From NCBI RefSeq assembly GCF_009882975.1, contig NZ_WTUX01000022.1, positions 70,088 to 134,087 of the forward strand: a stretch of 64,000 bases of DNA, written 5' to 3'. Below, in pieces: positions 22,094 to 49,305 of this stretch. The notes under the pieces are model-generated. The model was not told where the DNA came from. It did no database searches and saw only the letters and a program-made list of their open reading frames with translations. A program made the position numbers and the translations under genes. The first letter of the stretch is position 1, and every line of letters starts with the position of its first letter. The stretch comes from Maritimibacter harenae (GTDB lineage Bacteria; Pseudomonadota; Alphaproteobacteria; Rhodobacterales; Rhodobacteraceae).

Positions 22094-22180
22094 GCCCAGG
22101 TGGCGGAATTGGTAGACGCGCTAGCTTCAGGTGCTAGTGTCCGTATGGACGTGGAGGTTCGAGTCCTCTCCTGGGCACCA
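22094..22180 (+). tRNA. tRNA-Leu (anticodon CAG)
   Basis: An 87-nt class II tRNA. The acceptor stem pairs GCCCAGG (22094-22100) with CCTGGGC (22170-22176) and is followed by encoded ACCA. The anticodon stem CTAGC/GCTAG encloses loop TTCAGGT with anticodon CAG (reads CUG). A variable arm (TGTCCGTATGGACG) and the GGTTCGAGTCC T arm are present. Its 3' end is the left att site of the following genomic island. Confidence 0.97.
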
Positions 22181-22182
22181 TT
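22164..22182 (+). repeat. Left attachment site (attL) at the tRNA-Leu 3' end
   Basis: CTGGGCACCATT at 22171-22182 is repeated exactly and in the same orientation at 40267-40278; extending left by seven bases, 17 of 19 positions match. Use of a tRNA 3' end as the integration site is standard for tyrosine integrases. Confidence 0.7.
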
Positions 22183-22244
22183 TCCCTACAGGTAAGCCAC
22201 TGTTTTTCCTTGAGTTCAGCTCAAGAACGCAGGAGGCGTAGACC

Positions 22245-22424
22245 ATGCCGGAGACCACCACGGCAGCCTTCACATTTGTTAAGGCCGGGGTTCACAAGGC
22301 GAGGTCCCGACGATCTCACCCACCACTGCACGGCACGACGCATCAGCTATTCCCTCAGGACACGATCCGCTGCCGTCGCTGAAGCCCGCGCACGACAAGC
22401 TGCTTATCCAATCTGGCGTCCGTG
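22245..22424 (+). pseudogene. Tyrosine-type integrase, N-terminal remnant (frameshifted)
   Basis: An ATG at 22245 after AGGAGGCGTAGACC opens a frame starting MPETTTAAFTFVKAGVH, typical of the start of alphaproteobacterial phage-like integrases. After about residue 20 the homologous text continues in another frame (TARRISYSLRTRSAAVAEAR, ending near 22413), so there is at least one frameshift. The rest is missing: the frame stops at 22424, where the convergent phnM 3' end starts. Its place beside the tRNA supports an island integrase. Confidence 0.6.
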
Positions 22425-23546
22425 ACACCACACGCCACGCACCACTGGCGTTCCGTCCACTCGGCCGACACGCACGAGGTCGCCGTGCAGACCAAGGACG
22501 ACCCGGCCGCGATCTTCGAGCTTTGCAGCCCGTGCGGGATTGGACGTGACGCAGCGAATGGCGCCGGGAAGGTCATCCCATACGTCCGCAAGCAGGAACG
22601 CCGACGACATGAGCGCAGAGGGCACATAGTCGGAGGAGACGATGTCGAGCAGTCCGGCTTCCGCCAGCTCATGCGCTGCGACATTGCCGGAGTGCGACCC
22701 GCCCCGGATAAGGTTCGGCGCTCCCATCATCACTTGAATGCCATGCGCGTGACAGGCTTCGGCGGCCTCGCGCGTGGTCGGGAACTCCGCGAGGTGAATT
22801 CCATGCCGGGCCGAAACATCGACATGTTCGTGAGTCGTGTCGTCATGACTGGCAAGCACCGCGCCCATGCGATGCGCGTGGGCGACCGCTTCGGTTTCGT
22901 GGCGCGGACCATGGGTGCGCTGAAGCTCGAGCAGGCGGCTGACGTGATCCTCGAATTCGTCGTCGGTCATCGAGCGCTTCTTGGCCACATATTGTTTGAG
23001 CTTCGAGATATCCCGGAATTGCCGTTGCCCCGGCGTGTGATCCATAAGACTGACAATCCCGATGCGATCTTCCGGGCCGAATTCCTCCATCTCCTCGATC
23101 AGCGTTTCCGAACAGATCTCGGCGCGAAGGTGGATGTAATGGTTGATGCGCAGCGCCCCTTTGTCGCGCAGGGCCATGATCTCCGAGGCGACCTGACGGG
23201 CGTATTTGCCGTAGTTTCCCTTGCCACCCGAATGGATCGATCCGACCCGCAGCGCGTCGAACACCGTGGTGATCCCGGTCGAGGCCAGTTCGCCGTCATG
23301 CGCGAGGATGCCCGCCGCGTGGGGCCAGTCGACGCCGGGGCGCGGTTCGATATGACGTTCGAGGTTGTCGGTGTGGAGCTCGATCAAACCCGGCATGATG
23401 AAATCACCTTCGCAGTCGATCGCCCCAGTGACGCTCGTATTTCCGAGGTCGATCGCGCGGATATGGCCGTCGGCGACGACGATCGTGCCGTGCATCACTT
23501 CGGCCTCTAATACGATCTGTGCGTTGGTCAGGATCTGGTCGGTCAT
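22404..23546 (-). CDS. phnM: C-P lyase pathway hydrolase PhnM
   Basis: A 380-residue amidohydrolase-fold enzyme that cleaves alpha-D-ribose 1-methylphosphonate 5-triphosphate to the 5-phosphate and diphosphate, the step before the C-P lyase reaction. Metal-site motifs are visible: LIELHTDNLERH near residue 58, SHDDTTHEH near residue 218, and SSDYVP near residue 318. ATG 23546 follows AAGAGGCAAG. It is separated from the phnG-N operon by a gene on the other strand. This is the canonical copy; a divergent paralogue lies at 35000. Confidence 0.93.
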   Translation of the reverse strand: MTDQILTNAQIVLEAEVMHGTIVVADGHIRAIDLGNTSVTGAIDCEGDFIMPGLIELHTDNLERHIEPRPGVDWPHAAGILAHDGELASTGITTVFDALRVGSIHSGGKGNYGKYARQVASEIMALRDKGALRINHYIHLRAEICSETLIEEMEEFGPEDRIGIVSLMDHTPGQRQFRDISKLKQYVAKKRSMTDDEFEDHVSRLLELQRTHGPRHETEAVAHAHRMGAVLASHDDTTHEHVDVSARHGIHLAEFPTTREAAEACHAHGIQVMMGAPNLIRGGSHSGNVAAHELAEAGLLDIVSSDYVPSALMSSAFLLADVWDDLPGAIRCVTSNPARAAKLEDRGRVVLGLHGDLVRVGRVDGTPVVRGVWCHGRQIG

Positions 23547-23587
23547 ATGTCTTGCCTCTTGACGATCCGGCGCTGATAGCGGCCCCG

Positions 23588-23605
23588 TGTCACCGGAATG
23601 TGACA
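23588..23605. promoter_or_regulatory. Palindromic Pho-box-like site between phnM and the DUF1045 gene
   Basis: TGTCAC (23588-23593) and GTGACA (23600-23605) form a perfect inverted repeat in the 80-bp divergent region. Each arm resembles half of the CTGTCAT Pho-box unit, one facing each gene. Assignment to PhoB is inference. Confidence 0.35.
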
Positions 23606-23626
23606 AAAGCCCGTTACCCCGCCCAG

Positions 23627-24316
23627 ATGAAAAACTATTCCAGATACGCTGCCTACTTCGCCCCGCGCCCTGGCCCTTTGGCGGAATTTGCCGATGCTTG
23701 GCTGGGTTGGAGTGCGACCGACGGCCGCGAGGTCGCACACCCCGACATTCCGGGCTTGCCCGCCCCAGTGTCCGACCTCACCGCCACCCCGCGAAAATAC
23801 GGATTTCACGGCACCCTCAAACCGCCCTTCAGCATCGTCGAAGGTCGCGGACGCCAGGATCTGGAGGCGGCGGTTCACGCTTTGGCGCAGACCCTGCACC
23901 CTGTCGTGATGCCGAGCCTGCGACTCGCGCGGCTCGGCGGTTTTCTCGCCCTCGTGCCCGAAGGTGACACCACCGATCTTGCCGCTTTCGCCGCCACGGT
24001 CGTCAAAGAGCTGGACGGGTTTCGCGCCCCGGCCGGCGAAGCGGAACTGGCCCGGCGTCGTGCGGCGGGTCTGACCCCGGCACAGGAGGCGCACTTGCGC
24101 GCCTGGGGTTATCCTTACGTCTTGAGCGAGTTCAGATTCCATCTCACTTTGACCGGCAAACTGCCCACCGACGACGCCGAGCGTGTCCGCGCAGCCCTTG
24201 CTCCCGTGATGGAACCGCGCCTGCCTCAGCCCTTCGTCGTCGAAGACCTGTGCCTCTTTGGCGAGGCCGAGGACGGGTGGTTCCATCTTCTGCATCGTTA
24301 CGCGTTGACCGGCTGA
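23627..24316 (+). CDS. DUF1045 phosphonate-metabolism protein (2H phosphoesterase fold)
   Basis: 229 residues with the two HxT/S motifs of 2H phosphoesterases: HGTLKPPF near residue 65 and FHLTLTGKL near residue 172. This family is found in phn operons of alphaproteobacteria. As this cluster has no phnP, a role in opening the cyclic ribose phosphate made by C-P lyase is attractive, but it is inference. ATG 23627 has a weak ribosome site. It is divergent from phnM and its 3' end overlaps the convergent phnN by 19 bp. Confidence 0.8.
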   Translation: MKNYSRYAAYFAPRPGPLAEFADAWLGWSATDGREVAHPDIPGLPAPVSDLTATPRKYGFHGTLKPPFSIVEGRGRQDLEAAVHALAQTLHPVVMPSLRLARLGGFLALVPEGDTTDLAAFAATVVKELDGFRAPAGEAELARRRAAGLTPAQEAHLRAWGYPYVLSEFRFHLTLTGKLPTDDAERVRAALAPVMEPRLPQPFVVEDLCLFGEAEDGWFHLLHRYALTG

Positions 24317-24837
24317 ACGATCCGCAAGAGCGCGGTGACCGCGTCCTCGATCCGACCCGAATTGTCGATTTCCACCACGTCGAGACCCTCCGGCAGCGGC
24401 AACGCCGCGCGGTCGAGGCGTGCGCGGATATCATCCTCGGTTTCGCGACCTCGGGCCCTCAGGCGTTCGGACAGCACATCGGGCCTTGCCGTGACGTGGA
24501 TCACGCGCATCCCCGGAAAGGCTTCGGCGGCATCGGCCAGCATCGCGCGCGAGCCATTGAACAGAACGGTGTGACCCGCGGCGAGGTCGGCCTGAATGTC
24601 GGCGGGAATGCCATAGGCCAGCCCGTGCGCCTCCCAATCCAATGCGAAGGCCCCCTTGCCTTTGAGGCCGGCGAACTCGTCCCGCGTGACACCGGCAAAG
24701 TCCTCGCCGCCCGATGTGCTGGGCCTGGTTATGACCCGTCGGACCAGCACGATGGACGGATCGGCCTCGCGCGCAGCCTCCATCAGCGTGTCTTTTCCGA
24801 CGCCGGAAGGGCCGACAATGGCGAAGAGCCCGCTCAT
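24298..24837 (-). CDS. phnN: Ribose 1,5-bisphosphokinase PhnN
   Basis: A 179-residue kinase that phosphorylates ribose 1,5-bisphosphate to PRPP, returning the C-P lyase sugar to nucleotide synthesis. Walker A is GPSGVGKD at residues 9-16, in a guanylate-kinase-like fold. The start overlaps the phnL stop (ATGA). It is the last gene of the phnG-H-I-J-K-L-N series, and its 3' end overlaps the DUF1045 gene on the opposite strand. Confidence 0.93.
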
Positions 24838-25520
24838 GCCACGCGCGCCGGGGTAAAATTGCTCACGTCGATCTGACGATCCGCGACGCGGTCGCGGGCG
24901 GCCTCGTCATGGAAAATCCCGACGATGGCAGCCCCGCGCGCCTTGGCTTCTTCGATCAGCGACAACACGGTTGCGCGGTTGACCGCATCGAGCGAAGCGG
25001 TCGGCTCGTCGAGCAGCATGGCGGGGTATTCGTGAGCAAAGCCCCGCGCGATGTTCACCCGCTGCTGTTCCCCACCCGAGAAGGTCGTCGGCGACAGCCC
25101 CCAGAGCGTTTCGGGGATATTGAGGCGCGCCAGAAGCTCTTCGGCACGGGCCCGCGCCGCATTGCCCGGCACACCCACGGCGCGCAAGGGTTCGGCCACC
25201 ACGTCGAGCGTCGGAACACGCGGAACGACGCGCAGGAACTGAGACACATAGCCAAGCGTATGTCGGCGCAATTCGAGAATTTCGCGCGGCTCGGCGCGGG
25301 CGACGTCAACCTCGCCCACCACGATCCGTCCCGACGCGGCAAGGTAGTTGCCGTAGATCATCCGCATCAAAGTGGATTTCCCGGCACCCGAGCTTCCGGT
25401 AAGTGCCACGCATTCCCCGGCGCCGACGGTCAAGTTGGCGTCGCGCATCACTTCGATCACCGCACCGCCTTGGTTGTGCAGCGTGAAAGTTTTCGAGACA
25501 TTTTCGATCCGGATCATCAT
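24834..25520 (-). CDS. phnL: C-P lyase ABC-type ATPase PhnL
   Basis: 228 residues with Walker [10 protein letters not shown] near residue 42, the signature FSGGEQQR and Walker B AMLLDEP. PhnK and PhnL are ABC ATPases without membrane partners; they bind the PhnGHIJ core complex and are needed for phosphonate use. Two ATG codons in a row open the gene directly after the phnK stop. The gene overlaps phnN by 4 bp. Confidence 0.93.
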
Positions 25521-26291
25521 TCACACCTGTAGGACGGAGGACACGAGAAGCTGGGTATAGCCGTGCTGCGGGTCGTCGAGCACCTGATCGGTCAACCCGC
25601 TTTCCACCACATGGCCTGATTTCATCACCATCAGACGATCCGCCAGCAGGCGCACGACGGCGAGGTCATGGGTCACGATGATCGCCGACAACCCCATTTC
25701 GCGCACCAGCCCGCGCAGAAGGTCGAGAAGTCGCGCCTGCACGCTAACGTCCAGCCCGCCGGTGGGTTCGTCCATGAACACAAGACGCGGACCGGTGACC
25801 AGGTTGCGCGCGATCTGAAGACGTTGTTGCATGCCACCGGAGAAGGCACGGGGGCGGTCGTCGATGCGGTCGGCGTTGATCTCGACCCGACCGAGCCAAT
25901 CCGTGGCGGTGTCGCGAATGTCGCCGTAGTTGCGGGCTCCGACCGCCATCAGCCGCTCACCAACATTGCCACCCGCGCTCACGCTCATGCGAAGCCCGTC
26001 GCGCGGGTTCTGATGGACAAAGGCCCAGTCGGTGCGCGCGAGCATCCGGCGTTCCGGCTCTCTCATGGTGAGCGTATCGCGCAGACCCTCGGCGCGGGTG
26101 TCGAAATGCACCTCGCCCCGGTCCGGCGCGTGATGACCAGCAAGGGCCGCGAGAAGCGTGGACTTGCCGGAGCCGCTCTCGCCCACGATCCCCATGACTT
26201 CGCCGGGATAGAGGTCGAAGGACACATCGGCGCAGCCGATGCGGTCGCCATACATCTTGGTGACGTTCTTGACAGACAGGAGCGGCGTCAT
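25521..26291 (-). CDS. phnK: C-P lyase ABC-type ATPase PhnK
   Basis: 256 residues with Walker A GESGSGKST near residue 38, signature FSGGMQQR and Walker B LVFMDEPTGG. It is related to oligopeptide-transporter ATPases but sits in the C-P lyase operon between phnJ and phnL, where PhnK binds the PhnGHIJ core. ATG 26291 overlaps the phnJ stop (ATGA). Confidence 0.93.
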   Translation of the reverse strand: MTPLLSVKNVTKMYGDRIGCADVSFDLYPGEVMGIVGESGSGKSTLLAALAGHHAPDRGEVHFDTRAEGLRDTLTMREPERRMLARTDWAFVHQNPRDGLRMSVSAGGNVGERLMAVGARNYGDIRDTATDWLGRVEINADRIDDRPRAFSGGMQQRLQIARNLVTGPRLVFMDEPTGGLDVSVQARLLDLLRGLVREMGLSAIIVTHDLAVVRLLADRLMVMKSGHVVESGLTDQVLDDPQHGYTQLLVSSVLQV

Positions 26292-27172
26292 TCTGCGGCC
26301 TCCGGGGAAAGGCGCCCACGGTGGCCTTGAGCCTGCCGTCCGGCGCAATAATCGGTGTCGGAACAAACGAACATCCGCCCGCCCGCATCGTCGATGATCA
26401 CCTCGTCGAGATAGGTGTGATCGGCCCCGCAAAGGTCGCAGGGCGCGTCGGCCTTCGAGGGATCAAAGGGGTGATCCTCGAAATCGAGGCTGACCACCTG
26501 CGTATAGGGCGGGATCGCGTAAATCCGCTGCTCACGCCCCGCGCCGAACAGTTGGATCGCCGCCATTTCCAGTTTCGGGTTGTCGAACTTCGGGATCGGC
26601 GACGGGTCCATGACGTAGCGCCCTTCGACCTTCACCGGGTAGGCATAACTGGTCGCGATATGCCCGTGCCGCGCGATGTCCTCGTAGAGCTTCACATGCA
26701 TCAGCCCGTATTCCTCGAGCGCATGCATCTTGCGTGTCTCGGTCTCACGGGGTTCGAGGAACCGAAGCGGTTCCGGGATCGGCACCTGGTAGACGAGGAT
26801 CTGATCCTCGGTCAGCGGCGCTTCGGGTATGCGGTGCCGGGTCTGGATGATCGTGGCGTCCTGCGTGTGCTCCGTCGTTTCGACATCGGCGGTTTTCTCG
26901 AAGAACTTGCGGATCGACACCGCATTGGTCGTGTCGTCCGCGCCCTGGTCGATCACCTTGAACGTGTCGTCTGGGGTGAGGCAGGCGGCAGACACCTGGA
27001 CGCCGCCCGTGCCCCAGCCATAGGGCATCGGCATTTCCCGGCTGGCGAACGGCACCTGGTAGCCGGGGATCGCCACGGCCTTGAGCAGCGCGCGGCGGAT
27101 CATCCGCTTTGTCTGCTCGTCGAGATAGGCGAAATTGTAGTCGCTCGTGGTCGCGCCCGTCTGGTCGGTCAT
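26288..27172 (-). CDS. phnJ: Carbon-phosphorus lyase catalytic subunit PhnJ
   Basis: A 294-residue radical-SAM-type enzyme that breaks the C-P bond of ribose 1-methylphosphonate 5-phosphate, giving methane from methylphosphonate and a cyclic ribose phosphate. The cluster and catalytic cysteines are all present at C245, C248, C270 and C276 (C-x2-C-x21-C-x5-C), each four positions after the E. coli residues. The enzyme therefore looks intact. It overlaps phnI and phnK by ATGA junctions, as expected for fixed stoichiometry of the PhnGHIJ complex. Confidence 0.97.
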   Translation of the reverse strand: MTDQTGATTSDYNFAYLDEQTKRMIRRALLKAVAIPGYQVPFASREMPMPYGWGTGGVQVSAACLTPDDTFKVIDQGADDTTNAVSIRKFFEKTADVETTEHTQDATIIQTRHRIPEAPLTEDQILVYQVPIPEPLRFLEPRETETRKMHALEEYGLMHVKLYEDIARHGHIATSYAYPVKVEGRYVMDPSPIPKFDNPKLEMAAIQLFGAGREQRIYAIPPYTQVVSLDFEDHPFDPSKADAPCDLCGADHTYLDEVIIDDAGGRMFVCSDTDYCAGRQAQGHRGRLSPEAAE

Positions 27173-28257
27173 TCTGCAGCCTCCTGCATCGCGGCTTCGG
27201 CGGCGTCGCGCCGTATCTTGCGCACCAGTTCCAGCTCGGACTGGAAATCGACGTAGTGCGGTAGCTTGATGTGTTCCAGAAACCCGGTCGCCTGGATGTT
27301 GTCGGAATGTGCGAGGACGAATTCTTCGTCCTGCGCGGGAGCGCCCAGGTTGTCTTCGCCAAGCTCCTCCCACCGAAGCGCCCGATCCACGAGCGCCATG
27401 GAAATCGCCTTGCGCTCGGTCTGGCCGAAGACAAGGCCATAACCCCGGGTGAACTGCGCAGGCTCGGTCCTGGAGCCCGCAAACTGGTTCACCGTTTCGC
27501 ATTCGGAGAGCGTGACTTCTCCGATCTCGATGGCGAACCCGAGTTCGGGAATATCCATCTCGACCGCGACTTTGCCGATGCGCAATTCGCCCACGAAGGG
27601 GTGGTTGCGGCCATAGCCGCGCTGCGTGGAATAGGCCATCGACAGGACGAACCCTTCGTCCCCCCGCGTGAGCGCCTGAAGGCGCAGTGGACGACCCGCC
27701 GGATACTGCATCGGCGCATGGGTCATGTCAGGGGGAGTGGCATCCGATCTCGCCTCGGACTGGATCAGCCCGCCCTTGTTCAGAAACTCAGTGACGCGGG
27801 GCGTGTCGCCGGTCTGCGCCTCGGAGGTCTCGGCCGCTGGGGGAAGCCCCTCGGCCTCCAGCGCGAAATCCAACAAGCGGTGCGTGTAGTCGAAGGTGGG
27901 GCCAAGAACCTGCCCGCCCGGCACGTCCTTGAACGTCGCCGAAATGCGGCGATCACAGGCCATTTTCCCGGTATCGACCGGCTCGGCATGTCCAAGGCGC
28001 GGCAACGTCGTGCGATAGGCACGGATCAGAAAGATCGCTTCGATCAGATCTCCGCGCGCCTGTTTGATCGCAAGGGCCGCGAGGTCCGGGTCATAGAGCG
28101 ACCCTTCGGCCATGACACGGTTCACGGCGAGCGACAGTTGCTCGCGGATTTGCGCGACCGAAAGCTCGGCAACCGAGGTGTCACCCCGCCGTTCTTCGGC
28201 CAGCCAGGTGTGGGCATTGTCGATGGCGCGTTCGCCACCTTTGACGGCGACATACAT
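27169..28257 (-). CDS. phnI: C-P lyase core subunit PhnI
   Basis: A 362-residue subunit that, with PhnG and PhnH, couples phosphonate to the ribose of ATP, releasing adenine. The start MYVAVKGGERAIDNAH and overall length agree with PhnI. It overlaps phnH (TGATG) and phnJ (ATGA), so translation of the series is coupled. Confidence 0.95.
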   Translation of the reverse strand: MYVAVKGGERAIDNAHTWLAEERRGDTSVAELSVAQIREQLSLAVNRVMAEGSLYDPDLAALAIKQARGDLIEAIFLIRAYRTTLPRLGHAEPVDTGKMACDRRISATFKDVPGGQVLGPTFDYTHRLLDFALEAEGLPPAAETSEAQTGDTPRVTEFLNKGGLIQSEARSDATPPDMTHAPMQYPAGRPLRLQALTRGDEGFVLSMAYSTQRGYGRNHPFVGELRIGKVAVEMDIPELGFAIEIGEVTLSECETVNQFAGSRTEPAQFTRGYGLVFGQTERKAISMALVDRALRWEELGEDNLGAPAQDEEFVLAHSDNIQATGFLEHIKLPHYVDFQSELELVRKIRRDAAEAAMQEAAE

Positions 28258-28823
28258 CAGAGGTCCTCCACGATCGTGGTGCGGGGCAACCCGGCGATCT
28301 GTTCGCCTGCGGTGAAAAAGAAATCATGCCCCAGCGGAAAGAGCGCACGATTGGCGCGGAAGGGGTCGGTTTCGGGCAGGCGCATCCGGGCGACCGTTTC
28401 GACCCCCGGCCCCGTCAGCCGGGCGGTCGGCGGCGTGAGCGCCTCGACCTCGACGATGAGCGTTGTCGCCCGATCAGGGTATTCGGGGGTCCCGACAGGA
28501 TAGCCGGTGAGCGGCATCAGCGCGTCCCAAGCGCCCAGCGCGAACATGGCATGCGACGGGCCGACCAACGGCGCACCAATATGGAAGGCGATCCACTGTC
28601 CCAGCGCTTCGCTGTCGTGTCCTGGCGCAAGGTAGATTGGCGTTTCCGCATCACAAAGCGTCAGGAGCAAAGTCGCCGCGGCCTCAGACAGGCCGGGGGC
28701 TTCTGCACCCATGATCCGCTCAACCCGCCCGGGGCGGGCAAGGGCCGAGAGTGCCGCGCGAAACGCATGCGACGATTGAACAGGCGGATTTTCGAACCCG
28801 CCATTCAGAGCGTCATCGAGCAT
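28257..28823 (-). CDS. phnH: C-P lyase core subunit PhnH
   Basis: A 188-residue subunit of the PhnGHIJ core complex. The text SSHAFRAALSALARPGRVE near the start and HDSEALGQWIAFHIGAPL later are typical. The start ATG 28823 shares bases with the phnG stop (TGATG); a TTG one codon earlier is less likely. Confidence 0.93.
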   Translation of the reverse strand: MLDDALNGGFENPPVQSSHAFRAALSALARPGRVERIMGAEAPGLSEAAATLLLTLCDAETPIYLAPGHDSEALGQWIAFHIGAPLVGPSHAMFALGAWDALMPLTGYPVGTPEYPDRATTLIVEVEALTPPTARLTGPGVETVARMRLPETDPFRANRALFPLGHDFFFTAGEQIAGLPRTTIVEDL

Positions 28824-29278
28824 CAATCGTCTCCCCGCACCATCGTGAAAAAGTCGACCTTGGTCGCCGCCGCCTTGGCCGCACGATCCGCTTTAGCCCT
28901 CGTCATCGCGTCTTGCAGCGGGTCGAGCACTTTTGCCCGCAATCCTTCGCCCGCTTTCGTCTGCATCATCGCGTCGATCAGGGCGGCGCGTTCGGCATGG
29001 GCCTTGTCGCGCCCCTGCACATAGGCGTGGCCAACTTCGCCGGTCTCCAATTTCAACGCACAGCGCGTCACGGTCATTTCGCCCAGGTTGAACGGCGCAC
29101 CCGTGCCGCCCATACGCCCGCGCAGCATGACGCCCCCCACTTCGCAAGGCCGAAGCCAAGTGAAACCGGGTTTCGGCTCGACCGTGTCGAAGAGGGCCGC
29201 AAGCTGCGCGGGCGGGGCTTTCGCAAGCAGGCCCATCCAGCCTTTGCGCGCCTCGATGTTCTGGTCCGTCTGGGTCAT
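28823..29278 (-). CDS. phnG: C-P lyase core subunit PhnG
   Basis: 151 residues, the first gene of the C-P lyase operon. Typical parts are the N-terminal RKGWMGLLAKA and the middle FNLGEMTVTRCALKLETG. ATG 29278 is chosen, as the frame upstream covers the regulatory region. The 103-bp gap to the divergent phnF holds a promoter-like pair and a palindromic operator. Confidence 0.93.
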   Translation of the reverse strand: MTQTDQNIEARKGWMGLLAKAPPAQLAALFDTVEPKPGFTWLRPCEVGGVMLRGRMGGTGAPFNLGEMTVTRCALKLETGEVGHAYVQGRDKAHAERAALIDAMMQTKAGEGLRAKVLDPLQDAMTRAKADRAAKAAATKVDFFTMVRGDD

Positions 29279-29297
29279 TAGACACCTTGTCGAGTTA

Positions 29298-29311
29298 TAT
29301 AGACAACTATA
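29298..29311. promoter_or_regulatory. Candidate PhnF operator
   Basis: TATAG (29298-29302) and CTATA (29307-29311) form a perfect inverted repeat with a 4-bp centre, inside TTATATAGACAACTATAC. The TATAGAC core resembles known sites of HutC-type GntR regulators such as PhnF. It lies where phnG transcription would begin, so a bound repressor could block it. Confidence 0.5.
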
Positions 29312-29314
29312 CAA

Positions 29315-29344
29315 ATCATACCGAAGACTGCCGAATAGCAGCAA
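29315..29344 (-). promoter_or_regulatory. Candidate phnG promoter
   Basis: On the minus strand TTGCTG (29344-29339) and TATGAT (29320-29315) are 18 bp apart, with the phnF-type operator just downstream. Further upstream, TTGTTAC and AATTCAC at 29372-29366 and 29361-29355 have the 11-bp spacing of a weak Pho box. Confidence 0.4.
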
Positions 29345-29381
29345 GAAGAGTCTTGTGAATTTTTCGTAACAAGGGGCCGGG

Positions 29382-30092: not shown

Positions 30093-30096
30093 CGCC

Positions 30097-32215: not shown

Positions 32216-33066
32216 CAGCGGCCTCCTTCATGGACAAGCCGGTTGCGGGCGTGGCTCGACAGCTGGTCGAAGAACACGATGGTGAGGAACAGGAGGATGA
32301 AGATGGCGGCGGCCTCGTCGTATTTGCCCTGCCCCCAAGCCATCGCATTCTTGAGCTCGTAGCCGATGCCGCCCGCGCCCACGAAGCCCAGGATGGCCGA
32401 GGCGCGGATGTTGATCTCGAAACGCAGCAGCGCATAGGAGAGGTAGTTCGGCGCGACCTGCGGGATGATGCCCAGCCACATCCGCTGGCCCCAGCGCGCG
32501 CCGACCGACGACAGCCCCTCGACGGGCTTGAGGTCCGCGTTCTCGTTCACCTCGGAGAAGAGCTTTCCAAGCGCGCCGGAGGTGTGGAAGGCGATGGCGA
32601 TCATCGCGGGCACCGGACCGCCGCCCAGCACGAAAATCAGGATCAGCGCGATGACGATCTCGGGCACCGCGCGCATGATGTCCATCACCCGGCGGAAAAG
32701 CCCGATGAGCCGCGGCCAGCGGGCCAGACCTCGGGTCGACAGAAGCGACAGCACCGTGCCCAGGATCGCGCCCACGAGGGTCGCGACCGCGGCGATGTTG
32801 ATTGTCTCGATCAGCGACGGGAAATAGGTGACGACGTGACCGGGCAGCTGGTCCAGCTTCGGCGCAGTATCGGCCCAGACATCGGCCGGGAAATCGAAGA
32901 CGTTCAGGATCCCGTCCCAGAACCCGCCGGCGTTGCGGCTGTCGGCCAGCATGAAGCCGGATATCATCAGGAGCGCGAAAATCGCCAGCATGATCCCGCC
33001 GTAGAGCCGCTTGCGTGCGACCAGCGCTACGTAGTGCGCGCGGAAATCCAGTTCGACATCGGACAT
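32215..33066 (-). CDS. phnE: Phosphonate ABC transporter permease PhnE (first)
   Basis: 283 residues with about six membrane segments and the cytoplasmic loop EGLSSVGARWGQRMWLGIIPQ that docks on the ATPase. It probably forms a heterodimer with the extended PhnE encoded next. Preceded by phnD with a 67-bp gap. The frame continues upstream to 33180, but ATG 33066 begins the normal protein. Confidence 0.93.
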   Translation of the reverse strand: MSDVELDFRAHYVALVARKRLYGGIMLAIFALLMISGFMLADSRNAGGFWDGILNVFDFPADVWADTAPKLDQLPGHVVTYFPSLIETINIAAVATLVGAILGTVLSLLSTRGLARWPRLIGLFRRVMDIMRAVPEIVIALILIFVLGGGPVPAMIAIAFHTSGALGKLFSEVNENADLKPVEGLSSVGARWGQRMWLGIIPQVAPNYLSYALLRFEINIRASAILGFVGAGGIGYELKNAMAWGQGKYDEAAAIFILLFLTIVFFDQLSSHARNRLVHEGGR

Positions 33067-33133
33067 GGGGGGCCTTTCCGTAATAGAGCCCCGCCGCGTT
33101 GTGCGGCGAGGCTCGAGGCTGCTCAAATCCGGA

Positions 33134-34051
33134 TCACTCGGACTTCGCCTTGCGCGCTTCGATGATCGAGAGATACGCATCGTGCGTGATCGGATCGAAG
33201 CCCAGGCTTTCGCCGGCGGAGATGTTGTAGGTGCAGTCCGGGTCGGCGTCGTAGAGGCCGTCCACGAGCTCGGTCATGGTGGTCTTCACGTCCTGCGGGA
33301 GCGCGGTGCGCAAAACGATCGGGCCTTCGGGGATCGGCTTGGAGCGCCAGATCTCCACCAGGTCGTTCATGTCGACGAGGCCCGCGTCCACGGCCTTGCG
33401 CAGCGCGCCGGAGTTGTAGCCGTCTTCCCAGGCGCCCTGCCCGTCGGCCCAGGTCACGCCGCCGTCGATGTCGCCGTTGTTGACCGCGACGATGGTCTGC
33501 TCGTGACCGCCGGTGAAGCGCACGTCGGCGAAATAGTCGCCCGGCTCCATCGTGATCGCCTCGCCTTCCTGCGGGATCTCGATCGAGGGGATCAGGTAGC
33601 CCGAGGTGGAGTTCGGATCGCCGAAGCCAAAGACCTTGCCTTCCATGTCGGCCAGGGACGTGACGCCCGAGTCCTTCCGGGCGAAGCCGATCGAATGGTA
33701 ACCGTAGGAGCCGTCGAGGTTGATCTTGACCAGCACCGGCTCGACCGCCTCGGGGTCCTGCAGGTAGGTCGCGGCATAGCCCGAGGCACCGAGCCAGGCC
33801 ATGTCGATGGTGCCGCCCAGCAGGCCCTGGATCACGCCGGCGTAGTCGGCCGGGGCGAAAAGCTTGACCGGAACGCCGAGCGCGTCCTCGGCGTAGCTCT
33901 TCAGGCATTCGTGGTTGGCCAGGCGGTCCTGAGCGTTCTCACCGCCCAGGATACCGATGTTGAACTCCTCGATGCCCATGCCGTGGCTTTCGGCGAACGC
34001 GGTGCCGGTAAGAGCCGTGGTCGTGAGCGCGGCTGCGATCAGTTTCTTCAT
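33134..34051 (-). CDS. phnD: Phosphonate-binding periplasmic protein PhnD
   Basis: 305 residues with a signal peptide (KKLIAAALTTTALTGTAFA) and the PhnD/SsuA-type body (VPVKLFAPADYAGVIQGLL, then SYGYHSIGFARKDSG). It delivers phosphonates to PhnC/PhnE. It lies between phnC (71 bp away) and phnE1 (67 bp away). Confidence 0.94.
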   Translation of the reverse strand: MKKLIAAALTTTALTGTAFAESHGMGIEEFNIGILGGENAQDRLANHECLKSYAEDALGVPVKLFAPADYAGVIQGLLGGTIDMAWLGASGYAATYLQDPEAVEPVLVKINLDGSYGYHSIGFARKDSGVTSLADMEGKVFGFGDPNSTSGYLIPSIEIPQEGEAITMEPGDYFADVRFTGGHEQTIVAVNNGDIDGGVTWADGQGAWEDGYNSGALRKAVDAGLVDMNDLVEIWRSKPIPEGPIVLRTALPQDVKTTMTELVDGLYDADPDCTYNISAGESLGFDPITHDAYLSIIEARKAKSE

Positions 34052-34122
34052 CTTTCTCTCCAGTTGGTTGCGCCCGCGGGTGTTCGGTGTGGTGCGGGCA
34101 GATGAAATCTTGTGTCGGTGTC

Positions 34123-34950
34123 TCAGACGGTGACCTTCGCAAGCAGGCGCTCGGCCTCCTCGAGCTGTTCGTGGTCGTCGCGGATCTCGGTCGAGGTCGC
34201 CCCTTCGGAGAAGTCGTCGCCCGCCCCGTAGATGTCGCGTGCGACCCCGGTCGTGAGCTGCCCGGGCGTGCCGTCGAAAACCACCCGCCCGTCGCGCATG
34301 CCGATGATGCGGTCGCAGTAGCGGCGCGCGGTATCGAGCGTGTGGAGGTTGGCGATCACCATGCGCCCGTCTTCCTCGTGGATGCGGCGCAGCGCCTCCA
34401 TCACGGTCTGGGCGTTCATCGGGTCGAGCGAGGCGATGGGCTCATCGGCCAGGATGATCTTGGGGTCCTGCATCAGCGCGCGGGCGATCGCCACGCGCTG
34501 CTGCTGGCCGCCCGAGAGCGCCTCGGCGCGCTTGGCGGCGTGCTCCGCGATCCCGAGGCGTTCGAGAATGTCGATGGCGCGATGAATGTCGTCCCGCGGG
34601 AACAGGTTGAAAAGCGTGGCGACGGTCGAGCGTCGTCCCAGCGTGCCGTGAAGCACGTTCGACACGACGTCCATGCGCGGCACCAGATTGAACTGCTGAA
34701 AGATCATCGCGCAGTCCGACTGCCACGCCCGCCGCTCGTGCCCCTTGAGGTCGAGCACGTTGCGCCCGTTGAACTCCAACACCCCCGAGGTCGCGTCGGT
34801 CAGGCGGTTCATCATGCGCAGGAACGTCGACTTGCCCGCCCCCGAACGCCCGATGATTCCGATCATCATGGGCTGGTCGACGGTAAAGGTGGCGTCGTCC
34901 ACGGCCACGTTCTGACCGAAGGTCTTGGTCAGGTTATTGACGGCAAGCAT
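34123..34950 (-). CDS. phnC: Phosphonate ABC transporter ATPase PhnC
   Basis: 275 residues with Walker [10 protein letters not shown] near residue 36, signature LSGGQQQR and Walker [12 protein letters not shown], and a C-terminal acidic tail. First gene of phnC-phnD-phnE1-phnE2. The ribosome site GGGGGAC can pair with CCCCC 9 bases upstream, and a three-unit Pho box ends 53 bp before the ATG. Confidence 0.95.
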
Positions 34951-34956
34951 GTAAGT

Positions 34957-34975
34957 CCCCCGAGTTGACTGGGGG
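34957..34975 (-). promoter_or_regulatory. Hairpin that may hide the phnC ribosome site
   Basis: On the transcript CCCCC (34975-34971), a 9-base loop and GGGGG (34961-34957) can pair; the G run is the Shine-Dalgarno of phnC. The stem is short but all GC. Control of translation is inference. Confidence 0.35.
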
Positions 34976-34999
34976 TCTTAAACGTCGAGTCCTTTACCG

Positions 35000-36271
35000 C
35001 TATTTGACAGTTTCATAATAGTTTTGTGACAGGCTTTTCGACGACTGGGTCACGCTTTGACCACGGGCCGCAGGCTCACCTCGGTAAGCCGCGCGCCCTG
35101 CCACCCATGTGCCCAGGATGGACGGAGCATGCCCATCCGGCCAGTCGACCAGCACCAAGTCCGCCCGTTTCCCAACGGAAATCTCGCCCCGGTCGGACAG
35201 GTTCATGGTCCGCGCGGGACCGTCCGACACCAGGGACCAAAGCGTTAGGCGATCCGCCCGGCGTTCGTGGTCCAGACGCGCAACGGCGGCGAGCATCGCC
35301 GGATAGAAATAGTCCGAGGCCAGCGCATCGCAGAGCCCCGCTTCGACCATATCCCCTGCCGACAGGCTTCCGATATGGCTCCCGCCACGGGCCGCATTGG
35401 GCGCGCCGAAAATGATGGTGTCGCCCGCGTCGCGCGCTGCCTGCGCAGCTTCGAGAACCATGGGAAACTCGGCGACGCTCGCACCTTGGTCGCGAAACCA
35501 TGCGCGGGTTTCGGCACGGGTGTCATCATGGCTGAGCATCGGCGCGCCCACGCTGCGTCCCATCTCGGCGACTTTTGCGATCATCGCAGGCACCTCGCCG
35601 CGCCGATCCCAGACCTTGCCCAAAAGCGCGAGGTAATCGTCATCCGACAGGCCTGCCCGTTTCGCGTTCTTGGCCGTGCGTTGACGCAGCCGTTCGTCAT
35701 CGAGCGAGGCGGTGGCGAAATCCGGGGACAGTTCGAAGCCGCGATCCTGCACCGACGTATCCATCGCGCGCATCGCCATCGATGTGTGATCGTTGAAGGC
35801 GATCGACGGCAACAGCGGCCCGCCCAGCGCCCAGTCGATCACGTCGAGCGCCTCGAAGGCGAAGGTCTCCCACCGCAGTTGCACCCGGTTCTCGACCGTC
35901 AATCGCGGCGCCAGATCGCGCATCGCCTGCATCAGGCCGCGACCCCGGTTCACATCGCGCAACCCCGGCTCCCACCCCAGCGTGATCGCGTGATAGGCGG
36001 TGGCGATACCGGTCGAGGCAAGCTGGCGATCCGTGTCGATGACAGCCGCCTCCACCGGGAAGTAGACATCCGGGCGCGGCATGAGTTGCCGCTCGAAAGC
36101 ATCGCCATGCACGTCGATCAACGCCGGGGCGAGGATCAGGCCACGCGCGTCGATCACCTCACCCTGCGCCGGTCCGCCGATCTCGACGATCCGGCCATCG
36201 GACATGGTCACATTGGTCTCGGCGACCTCGCCCGGAAGATAGGCGGTTGCGCCCACGAAGGTGGTGATCAT
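35000..36271 (-). CDS. PhnM-like amidohydrolase (second copy)
   Basis: 423 residues, clearly a PhnM paralogue: HGDAFERQLMPRPDV near residue 57, SHDDTRAETRAW near residue 250 and SDYFYP near residue 348 keep the metal-site pattern. It is far from the canonical phnM copy in detail (for example HGD in place of HTD). It is the last gene of a transporter-methyltransferase cassette. Its final ten codons (L-S-Q-N-Y-Y-E-T-V-K) lie in the Pho box of the next operon, so the natural C-terminus may have been replaced. Probably hydrolyses a related phosphonate intermediate; substrate unknown. Confidence 0.85.
   Translation of the reverse strand: MITTFVGATAYLPGEVAETNVTMSDGRIVEIGGPAQGEVIDARGLILAPALIDVHGDAFERQLMPRPDVYFPVEAAVIDTDRQLASTGIATAYHAITLGWEPGLRDVNRGRGLMQAMRDLAPRLTVENRVQLRWETFAFEALDVIDWALGGPLLPSIAFNDHTSMAMRAMDTSVQDRGFELSPDFATASLDDERLRQRTAKNAKRAGLSDDDYLALLGKVWDRRGEVPAMIAKVAEMGRSVGAPMLSHDDTRAETRAWFRDQGASVAEFPMVLEAAQAARDAGDTIIFGAPNAARGGSHIGSLSAGDMVEAGLCDALASDYFYPAMLAAVARLDHERRADRLTLWSLVSDGPARTMNLSDRGEISVGKRADLVLVDWPDGHAPSILGTWVAGRAAYRGEPAARGQSVTQSSKSLSQNYYETVK
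35004..35032 (-). promoter_or_regulatory. Three-unit Pho box of phnC
   Basis: Read on the minus strand, CTGTCAC (35032-35026), CTATTAT (35021-35015) and CTGTCAA (35010-35004) repeat every 11 bases, the layout of PhoB-binding Pho boxes (CTGTCAT-N4). It lies inside the end of the phnM-like gene and 53 bp before the phnC start. Confidence 0.75.
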
Positions 36272-36918
36272 AGCAGTCGTTCCGCTTTCATATGCCAATG
36301 GTAAGAGCCTTCGCTCTCGTGCTCGCGGTCTTCCAGCCAGAGGACCTCGAACCCCGAAAACATCGCGAGCAGTTCCGGGGCGTTGCAGAAATAATGCGGG
36401 TGGTTCTTGTCGCTGCCCGCGGGCGCTTCGAACACCCACGTGTTGCGGCTGATCTCGCGCCCCAAAGCCTTCTTCCGTTCATGCGAAAGACGGCGTTTGG
36501 ACAGCATGGTGCCAAGGAACGTGCCCCCGGGGGCCAACACGCGGCGGATTTCTCCGACAGTGCGCAACAAGACATCTTCGTCGCCGTGATAGATCACATT
36601 CCACGACAGCACATGGTCGAAGGTTCGATCTGCGAACGGTAGCGCATGCATGCGCGCCAGAACGGTTTCGACGCCGCCCGCGCGGTCGATCTCCGCCAGG
36701 CCGGCAGAGGCGGCATCAAGTGCAACGACCTCGAACCCTCGACCCGCGAGCCAAAGCGCGTGACGCCCGACACCCGCTCCGAGATCGAGAATACGCGCCC
36801 CCGGTTTCAGGGTTTCGGCCCAGGCCATCACGTCCGCTTCAGGGGTGAGCCATTTGCTCCCCGCATCGACGGTGGCCCATTCTTCGTTCCAATGCACATC
36901 GGCAGTATCGGTCTTCAA
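36268..36918 (-). CDS. SAM-dependent methyltransferase of the second phosphonate cassette
   Basis: A 216-residue class I methyltransferase with motif I LDLGAGVGRH at residues 45-54, motif II VVALDAA and the post-motif LPFADRTFDHVLSWNV. I place the start at TTG 36918, which overlaps the permease stop (TTGA) and follows GGAGAGCAG; the first in-frame Met upstream is inside the permease. It overlaps the PhnM-like gene by ATGA. It may methylate a phosphonate substrate or an intermediate, but nothing in the sequence fixes the target. Confidence 0.85.
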   Translation of the reverse strand: MKTDTADVHWNEEWATVDAGSKWLTPEADVMAWAETLKPGARILDLGAGVGRHALWLAGRGFEVVALDAASAGLAEIDRAGGVETVLARMHALPFADRTFDHVLSWNVIYHGDEDVLLRTVGEIRRVLAPGGTFLGTMLSKRRLSHERKKALGREISRNTWVFEAPAGSDKNHPHYFCNAPELLAMFSGFEVLWLEDREHESEGSYHWHMKAERLL

Positions 36919-37721
36919 CGCTGCTCTCCAATGATTTTCGTGCGGGCCCAACCCGAAAGTTGTTCGATGCCGATCACGACGACGGCGATCATCAAGATGA
37001 CGGTCATCGCGGTCGGGTAATCGAAAAGGTCGAACCCGACCTTGAGCTCGATCCCGATCCCGCCCGCGCCGACGAGGCCCAGAATGGTCGACGAGCGAAC
37101 GGCCTTTTCCAGCGCGTAAAGCGAGGTCGAGACGAAGGACGGCATCGCGCCGGGGATCGTGGCGCAGGCGACGACGTCCAATCGCCCCGCCCCTGTCGCG
37201 GCGAGGCTCTCAGCCGGTCCCTTGTCGGCGGCCTCCATGTCGTCGGCGAAGAACCGTCCACAGAACCCAAGCGTATCCATGACAATGGCGAGCATCCCGG
37301 CAAAAGGCCCAAGCCCCACCGCGACCACGAAAACCAGCGCCCAGGCGATGTCCGGGACAGCGCGGATGAAGCCGAGGACCACGCGCAGTGACTGGTTGAC
37401 CCAAGGCCCTGCGATCAACCCACGTGCGGCGAAGACCGCGATGGGCAACGACAAGATCACGCCGATGACCGCGCCAGCGACAGCGATCTGCATGGTCTCG
37501 AGCATTTTCCAGCCCAACCGAGCCAGCACGCCCGGTTCCAGGTTCGGCGGAAAGGCTCGAGCTGCGAAATCGGCAAAACGTGGCGGCGAGCTGACGACTT
37601 TGTCGATGGAGAACCCAGCTCCGCCAAGGCACCAAAGGATCAGGACCAAAGCCCCGGCATAGGCAAGGAAACTCACCGCCGAGGGGCGCTCGATCCGGTT
37701 CGGGAGTGTCGTGTCAGTCAT
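36915..37721 (-). CDS. PhnE-type ABC permease (second cassette)
   Basis: 268 residues with about six membrane segments and the docking loop ESLAATGAGRLDVVACATIPG. A single permease gene, so it likely acts as a homodimer with the ATPase encoded next to it. It overlaps the ATPase gene by 8 bp and the methyltransferase by 4 bp. Confidence 0.9.
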   Translation of the reverse strand: MTDTTLPNRIERPSAVSFLAYAGALVLILWCLGGAGFSIDKVVSSPPRFADFAARAFPPNLEPGVLARLGWKMLETMQIAVAGAVIGVILSLPIAVFAARGLIAGPWVNQSLRVVLGFIRAVPDIAWALVFVVAVGLGPFAGMLAIVMDTLGFCGRFFADDMEAADKGPAESLAATGAGRLDVVACATIPGAMPSFVSTSLYALEKAVRSSTILGLVGAGGIGIELKVGFDLFDYPTAMTVILMIAVVVIGIEQLSGWARTKIIGEQR

Positions 37722-38544
37722 AAAGCCCTCTCAGGTCCGAGGCCGTGAGGCTGACGGCGGTCGCGTCCAGCATCTTGCGGCCTTCGGCGAGGCCCAGAAC
37801 GCGGTCGCCATAGGACAGCGCGTGATCGATGTTGTGTGAGGTGAAGACGACGGTGACGCCGTTTTCGCGGGCAAGCGACATGAACAGGTCCATCACGTCC
37901 TTCCCAGCCTGCGGGTCGAGCGAGGCGGTAGGCTCGTCCGCGAACAGGATTTCCGGCGCGCCAACGATGGCGCGCGCGATGGCGACACGTTGCGATTGAC
38001 CGCCCGAAAGCCGGTCCGCGCGACGCAGTGCCAGGTGCACGAGGCCGACCTTATCCAAGGCCTCCATCGCGGCGCGGCGAGAGGCTTCGGGAGCAAAGCC
38101 ATGCGCCCAATGGCGCGGCCCGCCCGTGCGTCCGAGCATCCCGTGCAGCACGTTCGACAGCACCGACAGACGTGGGACGAGATTGTGTTTTTGCGAGACA
38201 AGCCCGATACGCGCCCGAAGCGCCCTGAGGTCGGATTTGCGCACCCCGGTCGCAGGTTCACCCAAGAGACGAACCCCACCTGCGGTGGCCGGGATCAACC
38301 CCATGACACAGCGCAGAAGGGTGGATTTTCCGACACCGTTCGCGCCGACCAGAGCGGTCGAGGACCCACGCACCAGCCGGAAACTCACGTCCGAGAAAAT
38401 GGGTGTGTCGCCAAAGGATTTCGAAACCGACTGCGCCTCGATATCCACGACCGGGACCGAGGCGAATTCCGTCCCGGTGGGTTCCGGCCGCACATGACGC
38501 GCGACCGGAGCTTTTTCCCTGAGATCACTCACCGATGAAATCAT
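37714..38544 (-). CDS. PhnC-type ABC ATPase (second cassette)
   Basis: 276 residues with Walker A GANGVGKST near residue 65, signature LSGGQSQR, Walker [13 protein letters not shown] and switch His in TSHNIDHA. An N-terminal extension of about 30 residues precedes the ABC fold. ATG 38544 overlaps the binding-protein gene by 20 bp; GTG 38532 is an alternative. Confidence 0.9.
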   Translation of the reverse strand: MISSVSDLREKAPVARHVRPEPTGTEFASVPVVDIEAQSVSKSFGDTPIFSDVSFRLVRGSSTALVGANGVGKSTLLRCVMGLIPATAGGVRLLGEPATGVRKSDLRALRARIGLVSQKHNLVPRLSVLSNVLHGMLGRTGGPRHWAHGFAPEASRRAAMEALDKVGLVHLALRRADRLSGGQSQRVAIARAIVGAPEILFADEPTASLDPQAGKDVMDLFMSLARENGVTVVFTSHNIDHALSYGDRVLGLAEGRKMLDATAVSLTASDLRGLYD

Positions 38545-39394
38545 CGAACTGCGGGTAGCCTGCGTTCGAATACATCGAGCGCACGTAGTCGTAGGCGCTG
38601 TCATTGATCGAGACGAGGTCCATGCCGACGTATTTGTCGTTCTCCTCATGCGCGGTGATGCCCGCGATGATGGCGTCCTTGTTCTCGAGAATAGCGTTGC
38701 CGACCTTCTCGGCCGCCTCGGTCGGAACGTGGGCACCCACCATGATCATGTCGTTGGGCAGGTCGCCCGAGCGTGCGATCATCTTGAAGAACCCGTAGGG
38801 CACGCCCTCTTCCTTCGCACGAATGCTCATGAAGGATCCGGCGTTCATGCCGATCGCGTCCACGTCCCCGTTTTTCAGCGCTTCGAACGAAATGTTCTTG
38901 GCGGTGTGGGTCTTGTTGATGTCGTTCACCGGGTCGACGCCGTGATCGGCCAGCGCCTGCATCGGGCAAAGCATGTTGGAGGTTGAACCGATGTCACCGA
39001 AGGCCACGGACTTGCCCTTGAGATCTGCCGGCACGTTGATGCCGCTATCGGCGCGCACGATGATGGCACAGTGGTAATCCGGACGCCCCAGACCAATCAG
39101 CGGGGTGGCATTGGTCAGCTTGTTGATCACGACGTATTCGGCGGGGCCGGTGACGACGAAATCGACCGTTTCCCCGCGCAAGGCTTCGGCGGCGGCGGTG
39201 CGCGAATTCACCGGGAAGAACTCGAAGGTCTCGCCGGTCGCCTCTTCGAGTGCGGCTTTGAACGGACCCCATTCGGTTTGCAGACGCTCCATGCCCTCGA
39301 CGTCGGTGACGGCAAGGTTCCAGGTTTCAGCGGTCGCGCCGAGGGCCGACGCGGTGGCAAGTCCGAGGCCAAGGATCAGGGATTTGAGTTGCAT
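38525..39394 (-). CDS. PhnD-type periplasmic binding protein (second cassette)
   Basis: 289 residues with a signal peptide (SLILGLGLATASALGATA) and PhnD-family text (NSRTAAAEALRGETVDFVVTGPAEYVV, where only short parts are conserved; SVAFGDIGSTSN). It differs strongly from the PhnD at 33134, so it probably binds another phosphonate or phosphite-like anion. First gene of a five-gene cassette; GGAGC precedes the ATG and a Pho-box-like repeat lies 55-83 bp upstream. Confidence 0.9.
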   Translation of the reverse strand: MQLKSLILGLGLATASALGATAETWNLAVTDVEGMERLQTEWGPFKAALEEATGETFEFFPVNSRTAAAEALRGETVDFVVTGPAEYVVINKLTNATPLIGLGRPDYHCAIIVRADSGINVPADLKGKSVAFGDIGSTSNMLCPMQALADHGVDPVNDINKTHTAKNISFEALKNGDVDAIGMNAGSFMSIRAKEEGVPYGFFKMIARSGDLPNDMIMVGAHVPTEAAEKVGNAILENKDAIIAGITAHEENDKYVGMDLVSINDSAYDYVRSMYSNAGYPQFDDFIGE

Positions 39395-39448
39395 GATGTG
39401 CTCCAGAATGTGTTTCGGGGGAGTGTTTTTCGGTTCGGTAAAACTTCT

Positions 39449-39477
39449 GCGACGCCTGAATGAACCATCTGTGACAA
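39449..39477 (-). promoter_or_regulatory. Pho-box-like repeat of the second cassette
   Basis: On the minus strand TTGTCAC (39477-39471), GGTTCAT (39466-39460) and GCGTCGC (39455-39449) recur every 11 bases. The first unit matches the CTGTCAT consensus well, the third poorly. PhoB control is likely but not certain. Confidence 0.5.
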
Positions 39478-39651
39478 TTGCGCCGGACGCGGTCGCGACA
39501 CATCGCGACGCGGAGAAATCCTGATCGACCGGGTGCGCTCAACGGGAACGATTGGCCGGCGTCCACGGCCTCGTGCAGGTGGACGACGACGGCTGCCCCA
39601 TCGACCAGAACCATGTCGTAGGCCCGGGCATCGAAGGATCCGCGTCTCGTC

Positions 39652-39849
39652 TCAGGTCCCAAAGTCAGATCCAGCGCGACCTGATGGTTCCGCGAGAAGG
39701 GTTGAGCCACTCCCCATCTCTTGGACAGAATCCGGCGTAATTTGAGCTACTCGCTGCACCTGCTGATCGGGTTGGTTGAGATCGTTTCCCGGCCAATAGA
39801 CCTGCGCTGGAGGCTTGCCACCAAGGGCTGAATACGGGCGCTGGTGGTT
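39652..39849 (-). pseudogene. IS3-type transposase, C-terminal fragment
   Basis: The minus frame reads NHQRPYSALGGKPPAQVYW, the conserved end of IS3-family OrfB transposases (the R-P-x-S-A-L-G-x-x-P pattern), then runs to a stop at 39652. The DDE catalytic part is missing upstream, and no terminal inverted repeats were seen. Confidence 0.65.
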
Positions 39850-40144
39850 GACGACGCCGCGCTCACACCGTGGAACAGCGCCGAGCGTCGCATGTCGACA
39901 TTCACGCCGGAAAAATCCTTAATCGTCCACACCTGCGGAGGGCTCGAAAGCCGACCGCCTCCGCTTCGATCAAAGCGCGGACCTGGTTACCATTTACGCA
40001 AGGAGACTACTCCGGGCGATAACCCTCCCGCTGGAGCTCGGCTTCGATTAGCGACCGGGTTACTTTCTGCGGGCGGGGGGCCATGTCGGCGTTGGGAAAG
40101 CTACAAGCTCAGCGTATAAGGTCCGGATCCTAGGCTCAGGGCCG

Positions 40145-40184
40145 TTTCCGTAGGCGGGGCGCCCGCGGATCTTTCCTACGGAAA
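40145..40184. repeat. Perfect 10-bp inverted repeat near the island end
   Basis: TTTCCGTAGG (40145-40154) and CCTACGGAAA (40175-40184) with a 20-bp GC-rich centre. No T run follows on either strand, so it is not an ordinary terminator. Confidence 0.6.
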
Positions 40185-40224
40185 GCCCCATCAGGAATGA
40201 CGGTTCCTCATCGTGAACTTTTCC

Positions 40225-40255
40225 TGGGTGACGGAAGCCGAAGCTCCGTCACCCA
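40225..40255. repeat. Perfect 11-bp inverted repeat beside attR
   Basis: TGGGTGACGGA (40225-40235) and TCCGTCACCCA (40245-40255) enclose 9 bases and end 5 bp before the right att repeat. It could be a terminator without a T run or a structure linked to recombination. Confidence 0.6.
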
Positions 40256-40259
40256 TAAA

Positions 40260-40278
40260 TTCTCTTCTGGGCACCATT
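40260..40278 (+). repeat. Right attachment site (attR)
   Basis: CTGGGCACCATT at 40267-40278 equals the tRNA-Leu 3' end at 22171-22182; over 19 bp, 17 positions match. No tRNA is present here, as expected for the far end of a tRNA-inserted island. Confidence 0.65.
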
Positions 40279-43950: not shown

Positions 43951-43952
43951 GA

Positions 43953-44432: not shown

Positions 44433-44472
44433 ATCCCCATCCTTCCATTGGTCGTGAAGCCGTGTCGCCTGC

Positions 44473-49190: not shown

Positions 49191-49305
49191 TGCAATGACC
49201 TCCGCGTCGCCATCCTCGACAGATGCGCAAGGTCGTAGCGGCCGCGGACTAAGGGCCGGTTAATGTCTCAACTTTTTTGCGGGTGTTTTCGAGGCGGGAG
49301 GCCCC

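Follow-up and report, generated by a model that had tools for sequence, protein, structure and literature searches.

The phosphonate locus behind tRNA-Leu(CAG)

Behind the tRNA-Leu(CAG) gene of Maritimibacter harenae, a member of the Rhodobacteraceae, lies a block of genes for phosphonate use, whose origin is the subject of this work. We studied it within a stretch of 64,000 nucleotides from contig NZ_WTUX01000022.1, to which we refer as the window in the following. The tRNA gene itself, which we regard as the integration anchor, occupies positions 22094–22180 of the forward strand (ARAGORN). It is followed by a carbon-phosphorus (C-P) lyase cassette at 22404–34950, which consists of phnC, phnD, two phnE genes, a hexapeptide transferase gene, phnF, phnG, phnH, phnI, phnJ, phnK, phnL, phnN, a gene for a DUF1045 protein and phnM, all on the reverse strand save for phnF and the DUF1045 gene. 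A second module at 35000–39394, also on the reverse strand, encodes a PhnD-like protein, a PhnC-like protein, PhnE, an S-adenosylmethionine-dependent methyltransferase and a PhnM-like amidohydrolase. An earlier reading of this stretch (the original prediction) took both gene sets for one genomic island, with about 18 kb of phosphonate-use genes between two copies of the tRNA 3′ end.

As regards gene content, this description is correct. The genes phnG, phnH, phnI, phnJ, phnK, phnL and phnM, which define a C-P lyase operon, are all present with open frames. In module 2, PhnE clears the cut-off of its model, and the PhnC-like and PhnD-like proteins score under those of TIGR02315 and TIGR03431. 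For the PhnM-like protein, the scores suffice for the subfamily models NF011987 and NF011990, though not for TIGR02318. The biochemistry of C-P lyase is well established: the enzyme cleaves the C-P bond of phosphonates and thereby releases phosphate. Judging from these assignments, the island genes should enable the cell to import phosphonates and to cleave their C-P bond, with release of phosphate.

The repeat of the tRNA 3′ end

The 12-base sequence CTGGGCACCATT at the 3′ end of the tRNA gene (22171–22182, attL-like) recurs at 40267–40278 (attR-like), again on the forward strand. Searches for this 12-mer returned these two forward copies and no reverse copy in the whole genome (4,246,927 bases), zero and zero for a reversed control pattern, and, over 100 shuffled versions of the window, a mean of 0 copies. 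When the comparison is extended, 22164–22182 and 40260–40278 are identical at 17 of 19 bases. Within the window and five additional stretches of this genome, no other site on either strand comes within four mismatches of the 19-base sequence; the only site with five mismatches lies on the reverse strand of L096. The recurrence of the last 12 tRNA-end bases, their shared orientation and the extended match are therefore as the original prediction had them, and its caveat that the 12-mer might be common in the genome by chance does not hold, with only two copies in 4.25 Mb. The tRNA 3′ end is repeated at the far end of the block, as in tRNA-site islands, and we consider the repeat likely to be the att (attachment) repeat of such an island.

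The same epimerase gene adjoins this tRNA in all but one of 45 named loci (44); in the exception (L132), the contig breaks off 194 bases short of the match, close to the expected position of the tRNA. Repeats in the named loci were called either as an exact match of 11 or more bases that ends at CCA, a rule that the copy in the window would fail, or over 19 bases with mismatches allowed, a rule that it passes with two mismatches. With up to three mismatches in 19 bases, 345,854 bases of named loci contain three forward sites and no reverse site. An exact 16-base copy of the tRNA 3′ end lies 4.6–9.5 kb downstream in three of the 44 tRNA-bearing loci (L141, L146 and L164), and the site therefore seems to have been used elsewhere, too. 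Compared with these copies, the one in the window is shorter and farther away (18 kb). The downstream stretches of the 44 loci, which span at most 9.8 kb each and in several cases far less, hold no phn or che gene with more than 45% identity to those of the window. A search for integrase motifs in the first 3.5 kb past the tRNA, which was too strict for counting, found an N-terminal motif in L129 only and a single C-terminal one in L161. As a side observation, the Tropicibacter alexandrii locus L146 has an open reading frame of 965 amino acids at 6282–9179, between tRNA-Leu and its repeat, which by eye resembles the DNA methyltransferases of defence or restriction systems.

Two remnants lie between the repeat copies of the window. 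At 22245–22348 on the forward strand is a decayed, frame-broken N-terminal scrap, probably of a tyrosine integrase, with its right end at about 22348. It matches no Pfam family and was named via its alignment with the copy in the congener genome G007, which matches PF20172, presumably an integrase N-terminus family, at E 6.8e-5, under the gathering score. The first ~170 bases 3′ of the tRNA align between the window, G007 and a further congener, G001, before all three diverge near a common base; part of the first ~75 bases is also found in G009, which belongs to a different genus. The other remnant, at 39652–39918 on the reverse strand, is a C-terminal transposase fragment identified by eye from its translation, with a sub-threshold match to Pfam rve_3 (E 0.2); we take it to be IS3-like, from a motif of this group. 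Both remnants had been noted before, and a fragment is indeed present at each place, with an identity that is probable for the integrase and by eye for the transposase. Because both are reduced to scraps, the island seems unable to move by itself.

A variable stretch from tRNA-Leu(CAG) to the pyd genes

On its right, the variable sequence gives way to pyrimidine-catabolism (pyd-like) genes at 50886–64000, a conserved flank that is collinear with G001, G007 and M. alkaliphilus HTCC2654 (G003). Homology begins at 50886–50890 according to BLAST and perhaps at ~50810 according to an alignment. Among the seven Maritimibacter congeners searched, these three are the ones in which the interval from the tRNA to the pyd genes can be read on one contig; in G002, G004, G005 and G006, the contigs break off or the genes are not together, and the pyd-side gene used for the search has no more than a weak match in G004. 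The pyd genes, which lie at 50920 onward in the window, have their first match 323 bp past the tRNA end in G007; G001 has 4557 bp at this place, G003 18920 bp and the window ~28.7 kb. G007 thus represents an empty site, with the border at ~50.8 kb and not at 40.28 kb.

In the window, the right part of this interval is filled by a che cluster at 40368–49213 (reverse strand), annotated as a 536-amino-acid protein without a Pfam match, CheB, CheR, CheW, a methyl-accepting chemotaxis protein and CheA, and by genes for a cytochrome c′ and a cytochrome c at 49306–50251 (reverse strand; Pfam). As the tRNA leads to the pyd genes in the three congeners, the che cluster is best counted as part of the variable stretch, which on this comparison runs from ~22349 to ~50.8 kb. 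Neither a phn gene nor a close relative of the window's che genes was seen in the hot spots of G001, G003 and G007, and the che operon was accordingly ruled out as a conserved flank. The original prediction had expected block-free relatives to continue from the tRNA directly into sequence like that from 40279 onward and the che operon. This is seen in no readable congener out of the three, where the tRNA leads to the genes found here at 50.9 kb. In the two named Maritimibacter loci L130 and L131, no pyd, phn or che gene with more than 45% identity lies within 9.8 kb past the tRNA. The interval of HTCC2654 (L078) encodes a tryptophan dioxygenase, a kynureninase, an AMP-ligase, an enoyl-CoA hydratase and an FMN oxidoreductase, which looks like a cargo for the breakdown of tryptophan and anthranilate.

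The 536-amino-acid protein of the che cluster has matches in three of 61 genomes, including that of the window, with identities of 33% in G025 and 23% in G004, and only weak matches on plasmids (four records, ~25% identity). Matches to CheR occur in 15 of 19 genomes, the best besides its own being 58% (G025) and 44% (G004), with the rest at or below 37%. G004 carries a che cluster of the same order, with 23–54% identity, on a 15.6-kb contig (L185), and this type of cluster therefore occurs elsewhere in the genus. A proposed correspondence between the bases past the tRNA of G004 and the sequence right of 40278 was dropped, as the alignment is short and patchy over the remaining 740 bases of the contig; the end of this piece we take to be an rRNA operon leader.

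Ancestry of the C-P lyase operon

Among the 61 genomes, phnI is found in 20. Of the congeners, G001, G003 and G007 have it, while no match was found in G002, G004, G005 and G006 (the last being 81% complete). The three carry the whole cassette in the same order as the window, with homology ending sharply at the cassette edges, but at places other than tRNA-Leu. The phnI and epimerase genes share a contig in four of the 20 genomes, 6 kb apart in the window, 263 kb in G011, 951 kb in G003 and 2.6 Mb in G050, and lie on different contigs in 15 of the remaining 16, G024 not being part of the comparison. In G007 and G003, the cassette lies near a gene that we read by eye as ychF, one gene off in the former and ~8 kb off in the latter; G001 has it in yet another neighbourhood, and the genome of the window shows no phn match in a 40-kb stretch around its ychF region. 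This pattern is compatible with a relocation of the operon, but is no proof of it, because the orientations differ.

In a tree of PhnH, PhnI and PhnJ combined, the four Maritimibacter sequences form one clade (support 100/100), in which the window groups with G001 (98/91), then with G007 (99/99) and then with G003. The genus is likewise one clade in an RpoB tree, in which, however, G001 pairs with G003 (84/88) and G007 with G005 (100/99), and the place of the window has no support. Given these different branching orders, exchange within the genus is possible, and the phn operon may have been transferred between congeners. At the protein level, the window and G001 are 84% identical over the phn cassette and 87% over flanking genes. 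As three of the seven congeners share the gene order and a single phn clade with the window, a recent import from outside the genus is not backed, and the C-P lyase operon looks like the genus's own type. The claim that the entire C-P lyase capacity was acquired as a block is consequently not supported. Between phnI and phnJ, G001, G003 and G007 have ~600 extra bases without a counterpart in the window (window 27142–27169; L089 14079–14693).

Relatives of module 2 and base composition

Relatives of module 2 were sought in a plasmid collection and in the 61 genomes. The closest one found is on plasmid pSMR1-5 of the roseobacter Pseudosulfitobacter pseudonitzschiae (L212), in the same gene order, with protein identities of 82% (PhnD-like), 65% (PhnC-like), 83% (PhnE), 72% (methyltransferase) and 80% (PhnM-like). 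Unlike the chromosomal locus studied here, pSMR1-5 is a mobilizable plasmid that also encodes type IV secretion, on which the module is flanked on both sides by IS5-type genes and lies beside a second phnCDE set with genes for an NAD(P)-dependent oxidoreductase and a LysR protein; we presume from resemblance that this set is akin to a phosphite-oxidation cluster. No C-P lyase core is annotated in the 19.2-kb stretch of the plasmid that was viewed. On chromosomes, the best match to the PhnM-like protein besides its own is 60% identical (G008, E 1e-159), and the congeners have none better than E 9e-42. Module 2 is absent from the phn loci fetched from G001, G003 and G007. In G027, its transporter and hydrolase genes adjoin a second, divergent C-P lyase cluster (L183, contig C3); this genome has another phnI on contig C13. 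From these similarities, module 2 appears to be the best candidate for a recent import in the island.

The composition check suggested by the original prediction does not discriminate between import and relocation. GC content is slightly low at 22–40 kb (~62–65%, as opposed to mostly 65–69% elsewhere), a dip that the che part does not show, but GC at third codon positions (GC3) is equal for the C-P lyase operon (0.804) and the che genes (0.803), with 0.77 for module 2 and 0.90 and 0.85 for the flanks. In G001, G003 and G007, GC3 of the phn cassette is above that of the flanking genes.

A probable mosaic cargo in an insertion hot spot

We consider it quite probable that the block is a mosaic cargo in a hot spot between tRNA-Leu(CAG) and the pyd genes, made up of a genus-type C-P lyase operon that was relocated or exchanged, a module 2 shared with a plasmid, and che and cytochrome genes. 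The interval from the tRNA to the pyd genes is, as four genomes show, a variable insertion hot spot in Maritimibacter, and is here filled with ~28.5 kb of such cargo. An integrase-bearing element would once have inserted at the tRNA and left it whole, which would fit the repeat that bounds 22.2–40.3 kb. The C-P lyase operon of the genus would have moved in from another site or been exchanged between congeners, and the second module of transporter, methyltransferase and hydrolase genes, which by similarity is common to a roseobacter plasmid, would have joined it, with the che cluster and the two cytochrome genes occupying the rest of the interval.

Several observations weigh against this account. 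The exact repeat core is short, with 10 bases within the tRNA and two beyond. No intact integrase lies beside the tRNA, where there is only the frame-broken scrap, and since G001 and G007 carry this scrap without any island cargo, it does not date the block, contrary to what the original prediction had read from it. The predicted precursor, in which the tRNA is followed by the sequence from 40279 onward, was seen in no strain examined. Directly before pyd, G001 and G003 have a CheB-CheR-PAS gene that is missing in the window, so that replacement rather than plain insertion is possible. Finally, the silent-site difference is larger for phn than for the flanks (0.46 and 0.33 to G001, 0.46 and 0.38 to G003, 0.49 and 0.39 to G007); the flanking gene BacA alone reaches 0.44–0.50.

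This last point, together with the repeat at both ends, the lower GC content over 22–40 kb, the closeness of module 2 to its plasmid copy and the lack of a phnI match in four of seven congeners, would agree with an integrase-mediated arrival of the entire 22.2–40.3 kb, C-P lyase included, as a single element from outside the genus. Against such an arrival, which we regard as rather improbable, speak the single clade and common gene order of the four Maritimibacter operons, a cassette identity to G001 that is near that of the flanks, and an integrase scrap that stands in cargo-free strains as well. The same scrap, the exact match of only 12 bases and the transposase remnant directly adjoining the right copy could instead mean that the repeat is a chance match or the leftover of an unrelated integration, and that the phn genes came by homologous recombination or transposition without a tRNA-site integrase. 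We think this unlikely, since the 4.25 Mb contain only two copies of the repeat, of which the second shares the orientation of the first and lies at a module boundary, and since a like repeat is found at this tRNA in three of 44 other loci. It is less likely still that the phn and che blocks are ancestral at the site and were deleted in the other congeners. Such a history would suit the integrase scrap that G001 and G007 share with the window and the nearly common end point of its homology, but it requires several independent deletions, G001, G003 and G007 have kept phn at other places, and their hot spots show neither phn nor close che relatives. We therefore favour the mosaic cargo. What remains of the island originally proposed is a strain-variable set of phosphonate genes right behind the tRNA, bounded by a repeat of its 3′ end; the che flank, the scrap as a sign of arrival and the wholesale acquisition of C-P lyase do not.

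Comparison with known systems and implications

The region is a tRNA-site island of an already known kind. Phosphonate islands of marine HIMB59 contain phnDCE, phnCDEE, a methyltransferase and a hydrolase (PMC10734472). The flexible genomic island fGIphn-A of this alphaproteobacterial group resembles the locus in being strain-variable and in its gene content, with C-P lyase, phnDCE, phnCDEE, methyltransferase and hydrolase, a likeness at the level of gene content (PMC10734472). The transporters of fGIphn-A flank C-P lyase on both sides, whereas here both are on the phnC side (22404–39394), and its transmembrane protein and 5′-nucleotidase were not recognised among the genes scanned here (PMC10734472). 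Furthermore, the Maritimibacter island has a che cluster as its neighbour and is located at tRNA-Leu, where a repeat and an integrase scrap accompany it, while the section on the HIMB59 island names no tRNA site, the paper having the word tRNA a single time (PMC10734472). Within the genus, the C-P lyase operon of HTCC2654 has the same genes in the same order, but lies 951 kb from the tRNA-Leu(CAG) neighbour gene and is without module 2 within the 30 kb retrieved on its surroundings. In titles and abstract openings, a partial coverage of the literature, we found no description of this Maritimibacter site.

While the tRNA repeat and the integrase scrap suggest one imported block, the comparison reveals a mosaic of what would be a relocated genus-level operon, a plasmid-shared module and a che cluster. 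Tentatively, and as a possibility we would rate somewhat below even, the interval between tRNA-Leu(CAG) and pyd may serve the whole genus as a dock for catabolic cargo, of the phosphonate type here and of the tryptophan/anthranilate type in HTCC2654, with the C-P lyase operon as a sharp-edged unit that changes its chromosomal place between species. The site also offers a well-defined hot spot for studying the gain and loss of phosphonate use in marine roseobacters.

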